A stretch of 64,000 bases of DNA. It comes from Candidatus Woesearchaeota archaeon (GTDB taxonomy: Archaea; Nanobdellota; Nanobdellia; Woesearchaeales; GW2011-AR4). The position numbers and the translations under genes were made by a program. Of the stretch, positions 4,440 through 38,199 are shown in pieces. How positions within the stretch are numbered: the stretch's first letter is position 1; each line of letters starts with the position of its first letter. The notes under the pieces were generated by a model. It was not told the DNA's origin. It did not search any database and saw nothing but the letters and a program-made list of their open reading frames with translations. Location of the stretch: NCBI GenBank assembly GCA_016185945.1, contig JACPMR010000012.1, positions 62,001-126,000 of the forward strand. Direction: 5' to 3'.

Positions 4440-4536
4440 GATTAAAGAATATTTTTAATGTTTAAATATCTTTCATAGGCATCCGAAAAGCATAAATATC
4501 TGTTATTAACCATCAATTGGCTTTAAACAGGTGATT

Positions 4537-5211
4537 ATGTTGAAAAAAACATTATTGATACTCTTGGCGCTTTTAATTTTCGGATGCGTGCAAGCAAAAA
4601 ACTTCGATTATGGAATTGAGCAGGTTAATGTGCTGAATTCTAAGTACAATACAAGCATGGAAACTTACCCAAAAACCATAGAGCAGGTAAACTCAATGCT
4701 TAATGACTACAATGAGCTTAAAAATCTCCAACTGGAGAGCGGCAAAGAGCCATTTAATTATGTTGTGGATTACCGGATTTTGAACCTCGAGGCTGAAAAG
4801 TTGTTTATGGAAGACGATAAGTATGGCAGCACTGGCTCGACAAGAGAAGGATTTGGGTGCAAATCAAGGCCATTGATTATAGGGTCTGTGCAATTAAGAA
4901 ACAAGTCTGCATTGAAAGGCTTCGAGACAGTAGAGTTAGTAAGAGATTTTGTTGAAAAATATCCGGAAGAGGCAAAAACTGCAGGATTGTCGGAGAAAAA
5001 CGCTTTATTTTTGAATGCGACATTCTATGAAATATCAAGAGAGGCAAGAAGGGATAGCAATATAATTAATCAATTTTGCCCTGCAAATGTTACGCTGGAA
5101 TTGTATCAAGAAGAATTCAGGAAAAAAACTAACTTAAGCAAGGATTTCATTGACAATTTGACTTATGAAGATGCAGTTCCCATATGGAAGGAAATAAGAG
5201 GTATAAGTTAA
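4537..5211 (+). CDS. Putative lipoprotein
   Basis: The N-terminus is MLKKTLLILLALLIFGC, a hydrophobic signal ending in a lipobox-like LIFGC cysteine, so the mature protein is probably lipid-anchored. I chose the ATG at 4537 rather than the GTG at 4531 because it gives the compact signal peptide; a GGTGA sequence lies just upstream. The remaining ~205 residues are mostly helical and charged, with two Cys (GFGCKSRPL, NQFCPANV), and match no family I recognise. The stop codon abuts the ATG of the following zinc-ribbon gene (TAAATG), so the two are probably co-transcribed. Confidence 0.75.
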   Translation: MLKKTLLILLALLIFGCVQAKNFDYGIEQVNVLNSKYNTSMETYPKTIEQVNSMLNDYNELKNLQLESGKEPFNYVVDYRILNLEAEKLFMEDDKYGSTGSTREGFGCKSRPLIIGSVQLRNKSALKGFETVELVRDFVEKYPEEAKTAGLSEKNALFLNATFYEISREARRDSNIINQFCPANVTLELYQEEFRKKTNLSKDFIDNLTYEDAVPIWKEIRGIS

Positions 5212-5634
5212 ATGGTTTTTAAAAAACCTACAAGCATGGAAGAGTGCGTGTACTTTACCAGCAGAACTATGGGTTCCGGGAGGGCGATGTCATGGGTTTT
5301 CAGAAAGGAATGCCCGAAATGCAAAAAAGGAATTATGGAAAAGCCGTTAAAGAAAGGAGGCAAAATTGACAAGAAATCAGAGTATTATGTTTGCAATTCA
5401 TGTGGCTGTCAGGAAAGCAACGAGCAGGTTGAAAATGGGTTAGTCCTTAATGTCGAATACAAATGCCCTTATTGTGGCAATGAAGGCGAAACAACAACAG
5501 AATACAAAAGAAAAACATTTGAGGGTGTTCCATCCTATGTTTTTGAGTGCCAGAAATGCCATAAGAAAATTGGATTGACGAAGAAGATGAAAGATACGAA
5601 GAAAAAAGGTAATGAAGATTTGGGTAAGGAATAG
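5212..5634 (+). CDS. Double zinc-ribbon protein
   Basis: The 140-residue protein carries two treble-clef/zinc-ribbon units: CPKCKKG...CNSCGC (about 31-65) and CPYCGNEG...CQKCHKK (about 83-120), followed by a lysine-rich tail. It starts directly at the stop codon of the lipoprotein gene. Proteins of this layout are usually nucleic-acid binding, but no specific role can be assigned. The C-terminal segment TTEYKRKTF...FECQKC is reminiscent of ribosomal-protein-like or topoisomerase-type ribbons. Confidence 0.72.
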   Translation: MVFKKPTSMEECVYFTSRTMGSGRAMSWVFRKECPKCKKGIMEKPLKKGGKIDKKSEYYVCNSCGCQESNEQVENGLVLNVEYKCPYCGNEGETTTEYKRKTFEGVPSYVFECQKCHKKIGLTKKMKDTKKKGNEDLGKE

Positions 5635-6159: not shown

Positions 6160-6189
6160 ATTTTAAAAATAAGAACAAACAATAAAAAT

Positions 6190-6303
6190 TTATCTCTTTG
6201 CTTTCTTAAACAATTCCTCAACCTTTTTCCAATTGACACTAGCACTGGACAAAAAACCACTGGACATCTTCACGTGATATTTATAAAGGACTAATTCTAC
6301 CAT
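6190..6303 (-). CDS. Very small hypothetical ORF
   Basis: The ATG at 6303 gives a 37-residue product ending VNWKKVEELFKKAKR. The longer track version (to 6414) would start inside the tRNA-like gene and is unlikely. A TTTATATATAAG box near 6385 on the minus strand could drive it with a ~55-nt leader. There is no homology I recognise, and it could be a chance ORF. Confidence 0.25.
   Translation of the reverse strand: MVELVLYKYHVKMSSGFLSSASVNWKKVEELFKKAKR
6256..6290 (+). promoter_or_regulatory. Promoter-like direct repeat, copy 1 (ACCACTGGACATC + TATA)
   Basis: ACCACTGGACATC at 6256-6268 recurs exactly at 7537-7549. In both places it is followed about 10 nt later by a TATA-like box (ATTTATAAAG here). 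A start about 26 nt downstream would be near 6309 and would run into the tRNA-like gene. The second copy drives the intact homing endonuclease. Confidence 0.5.
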
Positions 6304-6325
6304 AATATTACTAAAAGAAAAAAGC

Positions 6326-6366
6326 CGCTCAAAGCGGCGGAACAGGAGACTGAGACCCTCAAGAAA
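6326..6366 (+). pseudogene. Degenerate duplicate of tRNA D-arm/anticodon-arm
   Basis: Aligned without gaps, GCTCAA...GGAACAGGAGAC-TGAGACCCTC matches the D-arm to anticodon-arm part of the tRNA-like gene (GCTCAA...GGAGCGGGAGCT-TGAGACCCTC) at about 26 of 34 positions. The D-loop differs, and no acceptor or T-arm follows. It looks like a partial tandem duplication left by rearrangement at this locus. Confidence 0.45.
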
Positions 6367-6399
6367 GTATGAATAATACTTATATATAAACCTTTGTAT

Positions 6400-6555
6400 G
6401 CCGCGGTCGCTCAACTTGGTGGAGCGGGAGCTTGAGACCCTCCTGCCAGCAATGGCTGTGACATGCGAGTGAGCTCGTTGCGAACTCGCTCACAAGTCAC
6501 TGGGTTCAAATCCGAAAGGATATGGGCCTCTTGGGTGAAAATCCCAGCCGCGGCG
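6400..6555 (+). tRNA. Interrupted tRNA-like gene, probably tRNA-Leu(GAG), with two insertions
   Basis: The acceptor strands GCCGCGG (6400-6406) and CCGCGGC (6548-6554) pair perfectly. The D-arm is GCTC-loop with GGTG-GAGC. The anticodon arm GGAGC-TTGAGAC-CCTCC reads GAG (Leu) with one C-C mismatch; the discriminator is G, so Ser(UGA) is an alternative. A variable arm GCCA-GCAA-TGGC follows. A ~42-nt hairpin (GTGAC...GTCAC) then separates it from the T-arm. The T-arm CTGGG-TTCAAAT-CC is itself split from its CAG by 31 nt bounded by AAATCC repeats. Removing both inserts leaves a normal class II cloverleaf. Bulge-helix-bulge splice motifs were not clearly resolved. Confidence 0.6.
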
Positions 6556-6558
6556 CAT

Positions 6559-6642
6559 AATTTAAAAGAAGAAAAAATACCTTATGTCGAAAAATGGTTA
6601 AACAATGGAAAACAGAGATATGATTATTTTGCATTCTCATAA
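6559..6642 (+). pseudogene. C-terminal relic of a LAGLIDADG homing endonuclease
   Basis: The frame starting just after the tRNA-like gene encodes NLKEEKIPYVEKWLNNGK and then a short tail and stop. This closely matches the C-terminus of the intact endonuclease at 7725-8549 (IKLKEKKIKYVYNWLNNGK). No start codon or upstream coding remains. It shows that an endonuclease gene once lay at or near this tRNA. Confidence 0.65.
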
Positions 6643-6686
6643 TTTTTATTAACTTGCTTCCAATTTACCACATTCCACCATGTTTT

Positions 6687-7472
6687 TTAAGTTTGACTAT
6701 TTTCAATAGACTTTGGGATATAATAACCTTGGGACATCATTTGGAGTATTCTCTCTTTATTTTGTGGAATGATAAGATTATCGTATTTTTCAATCATCTC
6801 TTTGATAAGTTTTTGGCAACCACGTGCATTATATACTTGATTATTAATGGCACTGTTAGCAATAATTGCATTAATATGTTCTTCACTAAATGGCTTCAAA
6901 GATAATAATAATTCAAAATGTTTTTCTGCATCTCTAAATGTCCAAGCGTTTTCGAGACTTGTAATTAAACAATCCCTTATATTTTCTTTAAACTCAGGTC
7001 TTTCAGCAAGGAATTCTATTATCTTAAATATTTCTTCATGACAATAAATTTCTTCTTTATTAGTAGTGTAATTTTTAGATACCGTATATTTAAAATTTCT
7101 AAATGCTTGAAATTTTTCCATAAATCCATAAGGTAGTGTTTCATCAATTGATACAGGAACAATAAATTTTGAGAATGATATTGCTAAACCAGTTTCTTGA
7201 TCAGTCCATTTAGATGTATGAAAATTTGAAGATAAAAGGACTATGAAAATATCTGATGATTTCAAGTTTTTTATAATTTCATTAGGCCAATCTTCTCCCG
7301 GAGGAATGTCATCATGAGCTAAAAAAACTTGGATACCATAGTGATTTAGTGCCTCTTTTATCCCACTAGCAATATTCTTATCTCTATCAGAATAACTAAT
7401 AAACGTCCTAAGTGTCTTGGGAGTGAATATATTTGATTTTACTTTAAAAAAATCTTTAGTTTCAATAAACAT
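6687..7472 (-). CDS. TIR-domain protein
   Basis: The 261-residue protein has an N-terminal TIR domain (about residues 20-135): TFISYSDRDKNIASGIKEAL, QVFLAHDDIPPGEDW, SDIFIVLLSSNF, then SKWTDQETGLA. The glutamate in the W-xx-QE segment sits where TIR NADases keep their catalytic Glu. The C-terminal half (about 150-261) is helical and unassigned. Stand-alone TIR proteins in prokaryotes are often NAD+-degrading effectors of anti-phage defence; that role is inferred from family and island context. It lies inside an accessory island between two copies of a 13-bp promoter repeat and next to homing-endonuclease sequences. No obvious partner gene is adjacent. Confidence 0.82.
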   Translation of the reverse strand: MFIETKDFFKVKSNIFTPKTLRTFISYSDRDKNIASGIKEALNHYGIQVFLAHDDIPPGEDWPNEIIKNLKSSDIFIVLLSSNFHTSKWTDQETGLAISFSKFIVPVSIDETLPYGFMEKFQAFRNFKYTVSKNYTTNKEEIYCHEEIFKIIEFLAERPEFKENIRDCLITSLENAWTFRDAEKHFELLLSLKPFSEEHINAIIANSAINNQVYNARGCQKLIKEMIEKYDNLIIPQNKERILQMMSQGYYIPKSIENSQT

Positions 7473-7536: not shown

Positions 7537-7570
7537 ACCACTGGACATCCTTGCCTAAAATATATAAACC
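7537..7570 (+). promoter_or_regulatory. Promoter of the homing endonuclease (repeat copy 2)
   Basis: ACCACTGGACATC (7537-7549) is followed by AAATATATAAAC, centred near 7563. The expected start 26 nt downstream, about 7589, is exactly where the structured leader begins. Confidence 0.55.
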
Positions 7571-7588
7571 CATTCTCTATCTAAAATT

Positions 7589-7724
7589 AAAAAAGAGAAC
7601 ACGCAAAACTGCTAAATTAAGTTTTTCGGCTTTCAGCACGAAAATCTTTTACGCAGTTCCGCTTAACATTCTCTTTTTCCTGAACTCCAAAGTTTTGTGG
7701 AAAAATAAAAAACTTTGGAGGTTG
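7589..7724 (+). promoter_or_regulatory. Structured 5' leader of the homing endonuclease gene
   Basis: AAAAAGAGAA (7590-7599) pairs perfectly with TTCTCTTTTT (7669-7678). Nested inside are AACTGC/GCAGTT and TTTTCG/CGAAAA. A second hairpin, AACTCCAAAGTTTT (7683-7696) with AAAACTTTGGAGGTT (up to 7723), buries the ribosome-binding GGAGG next to the ATG at 7725. The leader probably controls translation by hiding the Shine-Dalgarno sequence. Confidence 0.6.
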
Positions 7725-8549
7725 ATGAAAATGAATATTAAGACAAAACATGAATTGAGAACAGAAGCTTACGAACTACTTAATAAACTCAAGCAAAGTG
7801 GCATTCCTAAGAAAGAGGTCATAAGTAAAGTTAGCAACCAATTTGGGATACCTTATGGTACATTATATGGGTGGTATCAGTATAATCTTTCTCCTTTTGG
7901 TAAAAGAAAAATTCAATATAATAAAGAGATATTTTATGTTTTAGGCGCTCTTTTAGGTGATGGATGTCCTTACTATTGGAAAAAAGGACAACAGCAAATG
8001 GTTATAATTGCAGGAGAAGAAGATTTTATTAATAAATTTTCTGAAAAACTTTCAAAGTGTATTGACAGGAGAATAAAGGGGTATCTAAATAGAAGTAATA
8101 GCACATGGCATCTTAGAACATACAACATCGAGTTATATCAATTATTCATAAAAGTGCGAAAGGATTTAGATTTTCTATCGTCCCTTCTTAAATACGGCAA
8201 TTATCATGAGAATTCCTTAGAGATTATAGAAGGCTTTTTCGATGCGGAAGGTTGTATTAAAATTATAAAAGAAAAAGTAAGAAGAAAAACTCCTAAAATA
8301 TGTCCTGATATTTGCTGCACAAATTATGAAATTTTAGAGTTGATAAGGAAACTTTTGCAAGAGCAACTCAATATCGAAGCTAGATATTCAATACAGAAAG
8401 CAGACAACATTAAAAATAAGAAAATCGCTTATCATCTTAGAATTTATAAAAAGGAATTTGTAAGAAGATTTTTTGAGAATATAAATACTATAAAGTTAAA
8501 AGAAAAGAAAATTAAATACGTATATAATTGGCTTAATAATGGTAAATAA
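7725..8549 (+). CDS. LAGLIDADG homing endonuclease
   Basis: The product is 274 residues from the ATG at 7725, which follows GGAGG. The upstream part of the track ORF covers a structured leader and is not protein. The two LAGLIDADG helices are YVLGALLGDG and IIEGFFDAEG, giving a monomeric two-motif enzyme with both acidic metal ligands. The N-terminal ~60 residues (GIPKKEVISKVSNQFGIPYGTLYGWY) look like a helix-turn-helix. It is free-standing, not in an intein or visible intron, and abuts the SOD gene 3' end. Homing endonucleases cut long asymmetric sites to spread their host intron or intein. Its target here is unknown, but the relic by the tRNA-like gene makes that locus a candidate. Confidence 0.88.
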   Translation: MKMNIKTKHELRTEAYELLNKLKQSGIPKKEVISKVSNQFGIPYGTLYGWYQYNLSPFGKRKIQYNKEIFYVLGALLGDGCPYYWKKGQQQMVIIAGEEDFINKFSEKLSKCIDRRIKGYLNRSNSTWHLRTYNIELYQLFIKVRKDLDFLSSLLKYGNYHENSLEIIEGFFDAEGCIKIIKEKVRRKTPKICPDICCTNYEILELIRKLLQEQLNIEARYSIQKADNIKNKKIAYHLRIYKKEFVRRFFENINTIKLKEKKIKYVYNWLNNGK

Positions 8550-9158
8550 TTACTTTTTTAGACCCTTATTGTAGTTTACTTCTACCTGTTCCCAGTTAAC
8601 TACATTCCACCAGTTTTTGATATATTCTGCCCTCTGCCATTTATATAGGATGTAATATGAATGTTCCCACACATCAACTCCCAATATTGGAGTTTTCCCT
8701 TCCATCAATGGACTATCTTGATTTGCAGTGCTGTAAACTTCCAATTTGCCATTATTTACTACAAGCCATGCCCATCCTGAGCCAAATCTGTTCAAGCCAG
8801 CATTCGTGAACTCTTCCTTGAATTTGTCAAAACTATCGAAAGTTTGCTTGATTTCATCTGCGACATTTCCCTGCGGCTCGCCGCCTGCATTTTGCACCAT
8901 TATCTGCCAGAAAAAGGAATGATTGCTATGCCCGCCGCCATGGTTTCTTACAACAGTTCTTATATTTTCAGGCACGTCATTTATATTTTTCAGAATCTCG
9001 TCAACATTCATTTTTTCAAACTTTGTGCCTTTTACTGCACCGTTCAACTTGTCAATATAGGCTTGATGGTGCTTTGTGTGATGAATTGTCATAGTCAATT
9101 CATCGATATATGGTTCAAGCGCATTATAAGCGTATGGCAATTTTGGCAATTCGTGCAT
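8550..9158 (-). CDS. sod: Fe/Mn superoxide dismutase
   Basis: The product is 202 residues from the ATG at 9158, preceded by a strong GGAGGTGG ribosome site; the track start five codons earlier is less likely. Metal ligands are visible: the first His in [11 protein letters not shown], the second in [10 protein letters not shown], and Asp/His in DVWEHSYY. The DVWEHxYY signature is complete. It dismutates superoxide in the cytoplasm. It lies downstream of the sulfur-relay genes on the minus strand, consistent with protecting Fe-S assembly. Fe versus Mn preference cannot be read safely. Confidence 0.95.
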
Positions 9159-9234
9159 TAAAACCACCTCCAAACGAATTTCGCATTTATTTAGATGAAA
9201 TTAGGATATTTAGATAGTATAAATAGTTTTTGAT

Positions 9235-17045: not shown

Positions 17046-19575
17046 TTAGCCGACAGAACCTTCCATATTCAATGCAATCAACCTGTTCAGCTCAATAGCA
17101 TACTCAAGAGGGAGCTCTTTTGTGAACGGCTCCATAAACCCAGAGACTATCATTGTTTTAGCTTGGTCGTCACTCAAGCCGCGGCTCATCAAGTAAAAAA
17201 GCTGCTCTTCTCCAATCTTGCCGACAGTTGCCTCGTGCTCTATGTTGACATCCTTTTCATTGATTTCCATATATGGAACAGTATCAGATGCAGAATGCTC
17301 GTCCAAAATCAAGGCATCGCATGTTACATGGCTTTTGACATTTTTGCAGCCCTCTGCGACATGCAGCAATCCCCTGTAGGTCGTCCTGCCGCCATCCTTG
17401 CTTACAGATTTTGAAGTAATCCTTGACGATGTATTTGGTGCAAAGTGCAATACCTTTCCACCTGCATCTTGGTGCTGCCCTTTGCCTGCAAAAGCAACGC
17501 TTAAAATTTCTGCCCTTGCACGTTCTCCTAAAAGGTATATTGAAGGATACTTCATAGTGATTTTGCTGCCTAAATTCCCGTCAACCCAGAAAACTGTTGC
17601 ATTCTCATGGGCAAATGCCCTTTTTGTGACGAGATTGTAAACGTTGCTGCTCCAGTTTTGGATTGTTGTGTACTGGACTCTGGAGCCCGGCAGAGCAATG
17701 ATTTCAACAACTGCGCTGTGCAATGAATCTGAAGAGTAAACCGGGGCTGTGCAATTATGGACTATCATTCCATGACTCACGTAAGACTCATCTTCAACAA
17801 CGCTAAAATTATAGACCTCTACATCTTGTACAAACTCTTTTTTGATATCTTTTACTGGAACAAAAGCATAATTTTCTGTAATGTGAGCATAAGAAATAAG
17901 TTCTTGTTCTAAAAGCAAACTTCCCCCATCAACAAGATTAATGCTATGACTTACAACTTTTGAGAAAAGCTCTAGGTTAGAGCCGCCTATATAAACAACA
18001 TATGCAGTAATTCTTGGCGTTTTTCTCTTCCAAACATTTATTGAAGCAAAAATATTTAATCTCAGCAAAATGTCTCTTGTTTGTTCTGCAAGGACTTCAG
18101 AGACAGTATTTATTCTAAACATTCTTTTTCTGCCCCACGAGTATTTCTTATTCATGAAACTGCCATCGCCTCTCCAGTAACCTTTTATAAATTCTGCTTG
18201 TTTTTCAGGCGCTTCAAACATAAACCATTTAGGCAATGCCTTGTTTTTTGTTCCCTTACCGAATTCGTTCTTAAAAAATCTTGAGGCTCACTCCGTTTTT
18301 ATATTCTTTATGCTCAATAGGGTTTTTTCCGAAGAATTTTTCTAAAAGTTCTTTTACATCATCAATGTACTTTCTTTCACTTTTATTGAATGTAAATGTC
18401 AAGTAGTGTTCTCCCATGACACTGCCTTCAGCCATATAATAACCGACAAGCCTGAAGAAATCCTTATCTGTGTCTATTTTAAATTGTATAGCTTTTGCTG
18501 GATGCCTTCCTCGACCTATTTTAATTGAAAAAAATCTCTCTTCCTTTGAGATAACGGTTCTTTCAATAGGGATGGCAACGTAATCATATTTTTCTAAATT
18601 TGCTGCTTCAATCCATTTAGGGTTCCAATCAGTGTTTTTAGATTCAATTTTTTGCCTTTTAACAGCGAGTACAGGATGCCCGCCTGTTATTTTTATTTCT
18701 TGTCTTGTGTCACCATAATATTTAGTAGTACACAATACTCCATTATGCTTCCTTTTTTGAGTTTTATAGACTTTTTTGTAAGAGCCCGTATGTGTAAGTA
18801 CAATATCTCCTTCTTTAACTTCCTCTATTTTCTTCGTACCATCAAGCGTTTTAATTGGTGCGCCTTTAGTAAAACATCCTTCAATGTAATGCACTGAGCT
18901 ATTTGGCTCTGCTATGATTAAAGTCCTTTCAAACTGCCCCATGTTCTTTGCATTAATCCTGAAGTATGCCTGCAATGGCAAATCTACCTTTACTCCGGCA
19001 GGAACATAGACAAAAGAGCCGCCTGACCATACTGCTGTGTTCAATGAAGCAAACTTGTTGTCATTGTAAGGAATGACTGTGCCAAAGTATTTCTTTACAA
19101 TTTCTGGATATTCTCTTAAGCCGCCGTCCATGTCCAAGAAAACAACACCCTGCTTTTCCAGATCTTCCTTTATTTTATGGTAGACAACCTCGCTTTCGTA
19201 TTGGGCACCCACACCACCAAGAAACTTCTGCTCTGCCTCTGGGATTCCCAGCCTGTCAAAGGTCTTTTTGATGTATTCAGGGACATCTTCCCAAGTATCG
19301 CCTTGCCTTTCAGTCGGCTTTATGTAATAATAAATTTCATCAAAGTTAATTGTGTTTAAGTTAGCACCCCATTGAGGCATTGGCTTTTTCCAGAACTCTT
19401 CCAATGATTTTAATCTTATTTTTAGCATCCATTCCGGCTCTTTTTTCATCTTGGAAATCTGTTCAACTATCTCTTTTGTCAGTCCTTTCTCTGCCTTGAA
19501 AACATAGTCTTCCTTGTCATGAAATCCATACTTGCTGTAGTCCTTGTCAAAGATTTGTTCTGTTACTGGTGCCAT
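17046..19575 (-). CDS. sufB: SufB with in-frame intein broken by one frameshift
   Basis: The N-extein runs from the ATG at 19575 (MAPVTEQIF) to VHYIEG. The C-extein starts [16 protein letters not shown] and carries [14 protein letters not shown] and [20 protein letters not shown], typical of SufB. The intein sits at the conserved EG/C site and its Cys+1 is the extein C. The track splits the gene into two ORFs because of one extra T in a T6 run near 18274. Removing it joins SLKIF to [12 protein letters not shown] and restores one product of ~843 residues, ~469 after splicing. The track start at 19611 (TTG) lies inside a repeat element and is not used. Confidence 0.92.
17754..18876 (-). other. 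SufB intein with LAGLIDADG endonuclease, frameshifted
   Basis: Block A begins [13 protein letters not shown]; block B is [10 protein letters not shown] with TxxH. The endonuclease helices are [10 protein letters not shown] and [11 protein letters not shown]. Block F is [18 protein letters not shown], ending VHN before Cys+1. All splicing residues are present. The length is 1123 nt, that is 374 codons plus one base, matching a single +1 frameshift at ATTTTTTAAG. At that site UUU is followed by UAA, which would suit +1 slippage like that in bacterial prfB; a homopolymer sequencing error is the simpler explanation. Confidence 0.88.
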
Positions 19576-38108: not shown

Positions 38109-38198
38109 GGGGCTGTGGTGTAGCTTGGTATCATTGGCCCTTGGGGCAGCTTATGCTCTGGTATGGGTCCGACCTGAGTTCGAATCTCAGCAGCCCCA
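38109..38198 (+). tRNA. tRNA-Pro(GGG) with 17-nt anticodon-loop intron
   Basis: The acceptor GGGGCTG/CAGCCCC plus A73, the D-arm GTGT...TCAT with GG, the anticodon stem GGCCC/GGGTC and the T-arm CTGAG-TTCGAAT-CTCAG are all complete. The loop reads TTGGGG and then the intron CAGCTTATGCTCTGGTA before the last loop base, placing the intron after position 37, the canonical archaeal site. CCA is not encoded. A TTTAAATAA box centred near 38081 would place transcription start within two bases of the mature 5' end. Confidence 0.92.
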
Positions 38199-38199
38199 C

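Follow-up and report, generated by a model that had tools for sequence, protein, structure and literature searches.

In the 64,000-nucleotide stretch of Candidatus Woesearchaeota DNA that we analysed (hereafter the window), a LAGLIDADG homing endonuclease gene occupies positions 7725 to 8549 of the + strand, with an alternative ATG at 7731. Its product carries the motifs LLGDG and FFDAEG, including the acidic motif residues, and matches PF14528 at 43.4 bits against a cut-off of 22.5. A superoxide dismutase (SOD)-like gene, named from its sequence, abuts the endonuclease gene in convergent orientation (8550 to 9173, - strand) and is found in the same place in congeners; it is probably the host gene of the insertion. 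Among 59 relatives the endonuclease protein had one close homologue (genome G018, 65%), and comparison of the two genes gave a dN/dS of 0.16, indicative of purifying selection. All six endonuclease pairs that we compared fell between 0.13 and 0.19, again indicating purifying selection.

Upstream of the endonuclease gene, on the same strand, a promoter box (CACTGGACAT, 7539 to 7548) and a TATA box (TATATAAA, 7561 to 7568) precede a leader with two structured parts. The first, stem 1 (7590 to 7680), is a conserved structured RNA of ~90 nt that scores 105 bits with our model R1 and is built from nested pairings (AAAAAGAGAA/TTCTCTTTTT, AACTGC/GCAGTT, and TTTTCG/CGAAAA). Within it lies a core hairpin (7606 to 7659; model R2), whose internal loop keeps AAAT..A in its 5' strand and TTA in its 3' strand. 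The second, recognized from sequence and folding, is a hairpin in which CTCCAAAGTTTT (7685 to 7696), the anti-Shine-Dalgarno (anti-SD) arm, pairs with AAAACTTTGGAG (7709 to 7720) and so masks the Shine-Dalgarno (SD) sequence GGAGG at 7717 to 7721, just 5' of the ATG. A preliminary description of this DNA had proposed a nested stem followed by an SD hairpin, and both are present, with conservation and covariation far above chance. It had also given the second hairpin as 14 bp; GGAGG is indeed buried, but in a perfect helix of 12 bp. The 147-nt leader (7589 to 7735) had a minimum free energy of -41.2 kcal/mol (z = -5.7), and none of 200 shuffled sequences folded as well; in the longer context of 7540 to 7800, the z score dropped to -2.9 and stem 1 was partly re-paired. 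Placed from TATATAAA, transcription is predicted to start near 7590, at the foot of stem 1, in agreement with the start suggested earlier. This spacing is kept in relatives: a TATA-like box was present in 81 of 94, starting a median of 29 nt (interquartile range, 27 to 29) 5' of stem 1, compared to 9% in shuffles.

The leader belongs to a multi-copy structured RNA family. Model searches placed it in 79 of 352 genomes of the order, representing 45 of 220 genera, and in a phylum-wide draw all of the matches listed were in the same order. Among public records, the motif occurs under the label Candidatus Woesearchaeota, apart from one Nanoarchaeia and one short Micrarchaeota-labelled contig. Matches to the leader region occurred in the genomes of 31 of the 59 relatives, often several per genome, some of the shorter ones being the promoter box alone. 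Full leader copies sit a few bases 5' of the ATG of very different proteins. When 55 copies were aligned with MAFFT, using a structure that we assigned ourselves, 89.4% of cells were paired and double changes occurred at 18 of 30 pairs, compared to 8.6 in shuffled and 3 to 8 in slid controls. Across 94 copies from many families, in an alignment fitted to the model and therefore biased in its favour, 91.3% of cells were paired and double changes occurred at 26 of 30 pairs (shuffles, 14.7; slid controls, 10 to 14), with 265 double-change cells in all (shuffled, 69; slid, 33 to 57). A search for the leader 5' of other LAGLIDADG genes, as the preliminary description had proposed, thus returned homologues that keep the pairing. 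The core internal loop stands out as near-invariant and unpaired, with AAAT and A on its 5' side and TTA on its 3' side.

The whole window gave no match to Rfam 15 at the gathering cut-off, and permissive thresholds returned nothing relevant in the leader region or in relatives, so we rejected a known Rfam element. The core model matched the source genome in only two places, both before endonuclease-like genes, and found no host RNA with the same core there; on these grounds we also rejected mimicry of a host RNA, in which the core would have been copied from rRNA or a ribosomal-protein leader. A viral origin was set aside after an exact DNA pattern found no match in viral contigs. No such RNA was reported in the literature searched, where most subscription journals were absent. 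We conclude that the leader represents an RNA family of Woesearchaeota-type archaea not catalogued before, with a conserved core besides its SD hairpin, carried by unrelated selfish genes across a large order of uncultured archaea.

The open reading frames (ORFs) behind the leader are nearly all mobile nucleases. Pfam assigned LAGLIDADG_3 to 42, LAGLIDADG_2 to 4, LAGLIDADG_1 to 2, and HNH_repeat to 4 of a first set of 57 downstream ORFs, and LAGLIDADG_3 to 38, LAGLIDADG_2 to 5, WhiA LAGLIDADG to 5, HNH_repeat to 2, the IS200 transposase domain (Y1_Tnp) to 3, and 23S_rRNA_IVP to 1 of a more distant set of 61, where in both sets one protein may match several families. Several ORFs had no Pfam match, some of these bearing GDG-type motifs. 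By hand count in eight genomes, about 17 of 26 free-standing LAGLIDADG_3 ORFs carry the leader and none of the long, intein-like frames does. The leaders of the three IS200-type transposase genes (L124, L182, and L184) resemble the family at 35 to 42 bits with model R1, chiefly in its outer part, and the start region of each gene is covered by a hairpin; they are probably, although not certainly, members. A leader-like RNA also lies 5' of the gene for the 23S rRNA intervening-sequence protein, a four-helix bundle (L181, genome G193).

Within the genus, leaders standing before unrelated endonucleases in different genomes shared a mean identity of 74.2%, compared to 75.2% for those before homologous ones, and the most similar pair (98.6%) stands before unrelated endonucleases in a single genome (G016). 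Mean column identity among the endonuclease proteins is only 12%. Co-inheritance of the leader with one endonuclease lineage was rejected, given that leader identity is equal for unrelated and related genes. Since leader identity is independent of endonuclease relatedness, the leader moves between endonucleases or is swapped among them, and on these comparisons it behaves as an exchangeable module. A community of unrelated selfish genes seems to share one built-in translation control that appears to hide their ribosome-binding sites, a concrete case of one control module common to unrelated mobile nucleases. Several leader-endonuclease units abut or overlap tRNA genes for Ala, Lys, Asn, or His (L017, L024, L029, L037, L049, L052, and L062), and L062 includes leader remnants without an ORF, one of which adjoins a tRNA-Asn gene.

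The leaders come in three architectures, all of which keep the core and a masked SD. In type 1, to which the locus belongs (7589 to 7724), the promoter is followed by stem 1 with its core and then by a separate SD hairpin. In type 2, the promoter is followed by an anti-SD (e.g., AATCACC), the core, and the SD (e.g., GGTGATT). In type 3, anti-SD and SD flank a core that holds the CACTGGACAT/TATA promoter in its apical loop, a layout observed at L313-L320, L322, L323, L332, and L119. The core covaries across types 1 and 2, as well as within types 2 and 3. Among type-1 leaders, the SD was at least 60% paired in 69 of 88, compared to 115 of 260 other genes (p = 1.8e-8), a rough control in that 44% of ordinary genes likewise fold over their SD; the masking arms have many different sequences. 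In types 2 and 3, pairing of SD and anti-SD across the core was within the 5% level of shuffles at 21 of 30 loci. The predicted start of type 3 lies 0 to 5 nt past the core at 12 of 12 loci, so that an mRNA made from the gene's own promoter should carry an exposed SD, with folding left to read-through RNA alone.

The promoter box is common to replication/repair-type genes of the source genome. Searching that genome for CACTGGACA followed by a TATA-like element gave 24 matches (several overlapping), compared to 0 in a reversed-pattern control, and the combined pattern is also frequent in three congeners. Genes behind the box in the source genome (G000, loci L185-L235) include those for two methyladenine glycosylases, MCM, RadC, a Cas4/PDDEXK nuclease, an RNase H-like exonuclease, and a phage-type integrase. 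In congeners the box again stands before similar genes for MCM, integrase, and exonuclease, and also before genes for a ribonucleotide-reductase-like protein, DNA methylases, and endonucleases, as read from their sequences. A TBP gene proved to be a wrong assignment for one of these sites, where the gene downstream is MCM. The box looks like the mark of a candidate replication/repair regulon in Woesearchaeota that selfish genes have joined, and such a regulon might be induced by DNA damage. The shared, gene-independent family, the further architectures, and this association of the promoter box all go beyond the preliminary description. A second box with a TATA element lies at 6258 to 6285 of the window, within a region (6240 to 6620) where it is followed by a tRNA-like, possibly degenerate sequence, which neither ARAGORN nor Rfam called as a tRNA, and by a short ORF that ends in KWLNNGK, similar to the C-terminus of the endonuclease. 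At another locus (L046, genome G005), stem 1 stands directly against the CACTGGACAT box and the TATA region is absent.

Given these features, we think that the leader is probably a cis-acting translational silencer with a sensor core, which keeps the homing endonuclease untranslated. The family, its paired core, the SD complementarity in three layouts, and the independence from the endonuclease are computational results. In the course of events that we infer, from transcript start through actual repression to the opening signal, transcription from the CACTGGACAT/TATA promoter would begin at the foot of stem 1, and the 90-nt stem-1 RNA would fold first. The hairpin after stem 1 (in type 2, the anti-SD before the core) would then pair with the SD, and translation would need an opening event, in the simplest case a host factor or ligand that binds the core at its conserved internal loop. 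In type 3, read-through RNA alone would be silenced, the gene's own mRNA beginning just past the core with its SD free. The leader would spread together with the unrelated homing endonucleases among which it is exchanged. That the core loop is so conserved before unrelated genes suggests a shared binding partner and points to an RNA-binding factor or ligand. Counting against a silencer, the promoters of types 1 and 2 lie upstream of the structure, so silencing would extend to the mRNA of the gene itself. The preliminary description had offered a riboregulator or thermosensor of a selfish gene, or a part of its mobile unit; the riboregulator and the mobile-unit part are both supported, since the leader recurs before dozens of other homing endonucleases and shows compensatory changes in stem 1 and a conserved masked SD, whereas the thermosensor is not supported, on grounds given below. 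With a silencer of this kind, how homing endonucleases keep from damaging the host could be tested in archaea, its three natural layouts serving as built-in experiments.

More speculatively, the leader may be one host-coupled RNA switch common to unrelated selfish nucleases, comprising several endonuclease families and IS200 transposases. Its core would read a single cellular signal or factor and, together with a promoter of the replication/repair type, would restrict homing to times when recombinational repair is at hand; the module, traded between elements, would itself be a unit of selection. We offer this wider reading as a tentative possibility.

If pairing in the mRNA is what selection maintains, G.U combinations should be commoner than A.C. 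Pairs near the SD follow this expectation (30 G.U, 9 A.C), whereas stem 1 shows the opposite (84 A.C, 37 G.U), as does the core of types 2 and 3 (28 A.C, 10 G.U); these counts ignore shared ancestry, and a one-sided sequence constraint could explain the A.C excess. The stem could instead be selected mainly as DNA or as an antisense transcript, that is, as a hairpin or palindrome for recombination, insertion, or bidirectional termination of the mobile unit, with SD masking being secondary. Such selection would fit the A.C excess, the slightly better fold of the leader's reverse strand (z = -6.4), the A5/T5 found at both ends of stem 1, and the type-3 promoter, which splits the core and leaves the gene's own mRNA without the structure. 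We nevertheless consider it unlikely, because complementarity between SD and anti-SD is kept in three layouts, G.U exceeds A.C beside the SD, and the box and TATA element stand on the sense strand at a fixed distance from stem 1.

A lariat-capping ribozyme sits upstream of some endonuclease mRNAs, and the leader could in a comparable way be a processing or self-cleaving element, being compact, near-invariant at unpaired nucleotides, and located at the extreme 5' end of the mRNA. Cleavage within the core would then determine mRNA stability or release the SD. However, no Rfam ribozyme matched, and a cut in the type-1 core would leave the SD hairpin intact, making this explanation improbable. A hairpin over the SD is also the usual device of RNA thermometers, in which heat melts the hairpin and the SD becomes accessible over the physiological range. 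Here, folding calculations between 5 and 75 C leave the SD masked throughout, its GG remaining paired (probability unpaired, <0.02); a hairpin of 12 perfect base pairs is improbable as a thermometer, and the additional conserved core would be superfluous in one. We therefore rejected the thermosensor as very improbable, and on the same calculation the opening signal of a type-1 leader is not temperature. AT-rich sequence folds easily and the promoter box alone is common in the genome, but a chance structure, or a merely shared promoter sequence with no RNA function, is contradicted by conservation and covariation far above all controls and is extremely improbable.

Comparable arrangements are found in other mobile elements. 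In T-even phages, hairpins mask the ribosome-binding sites of the homing endonuclease genes I-TevI, I-TevII, I-TevIII, segB, and mobE, and internal-promoter transcripts that lack the 5' part escape this masking (PMC2988022). As in the phages, the endonuclease SD at our locus is buried in a hairpin, and a similar escape is predicted for type 3, in which the gene's own transcript should be free of inhibitory structure at all 12 loci; for type 1, transcription is instead predicted to begin at the base of stem 1, ahead of the SD hairpin. The phage hairpins were described gene by gene, with no shared conserved RNA (PMC2988022), whereas on the archaeal chromosomes a single covarying family stands before unrelated endonucleases and has, in addition to the SD hairpin, a conserved core. 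By analogy, the best explanation is that the leader resembles the T4 endonuclease hairpins in action, but as a new, shared RNA family. The tnpA gene of IS200 in enteric bacteria (5'tnpA, art200) is another mobile-element gene with a highly structured 5' RNA; its translation is prevented in several ways, mRNA structure among them, and an antisense RNA exists (PMC12594629, citing Ellis et al. 2015). The leaders of the three Woesearchaeota IS200 transposases match model R1 at low score. HEARO/OMEGA RNAs of IscB, IsrB, and TnpB elements are conserved RNAs that also adjoin a mobile nuclease gene, and there the RNA guides the nuclease. In contrast, the partners of the leader are LAGLIDADG and HNH_repeat proteins (Pfam domains LAGLIDADG_1/2/3, WhiA LAGLIDADG, HNH_repeat, Y1_Tnp, and 23S_rRNA_IVP) rather than nucleases of IscB, IsrB, or TnpB type, and the RNA overlaps the promoter-to-SD region and has no Rfam match. 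Riboswitches and leaders that mimic ribosomal-protein binding sites have a conserved core 5' of a masked SD, and the leader shares this plan, with a conserved, covarying, aptamer-like domain (the core) 5' of an expression platform (the SD stem). Unlike in those systems, the downstream genes suggest no ligand, and no host RNA with this core was found in the same genome.

The locus also carries traces of its insertion history. The slot between a gene pair at 4531 to 5634 and the convergent SOD-like gene varies among congeners, and in the source genome it contains a TIR-domain gene and the leader with its endonuclease. The 3' end of the SOD gene also occurs there in two displaced copies, both upstream of the endonuclease on the - strand (copy A, 6160 to 6238, SVNWKKVEELFKKAKR and stop; copy B, 6623 to 6690, TWWNVVNWKQVNKNYENAK and stop). 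This layout is consistent with repeated insertions that struck the SOD 3' end and replaced it, a history that we consider likely by analogy. In fungal mitochondria, mobile ORFs carry a replacement C-terminus for the host gene, whose displaced native 3' end stays nearby (PMC3630166). The SOD locus is similar in placing an endonuclease ORF beside a host gene and its displaced 3' end, but it lies on an archaeal chromosome, and its unit comes with a promoter and an RNA leader of its own. Duplicated ends are not enriched at the other loci tested: over 60 loci there was no clear excess, self matches being about as frequent as cross matches, and we rejected duplicated target 3' ends as a general rule, the pattern being clear at the SOD locus only. 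The TIR-domain gene of the variable slot (6687 to 7472, - strand) has a Thoeris-like score. Elsewhere in the window, ARAGORN called a tRNA at 38109 to 38199 whose identity is ambiguous, its anticodon being read as two bases, and a SufB-type protein with a LAGLIDADG intein-like domain is encoded at 17046 to 18236.
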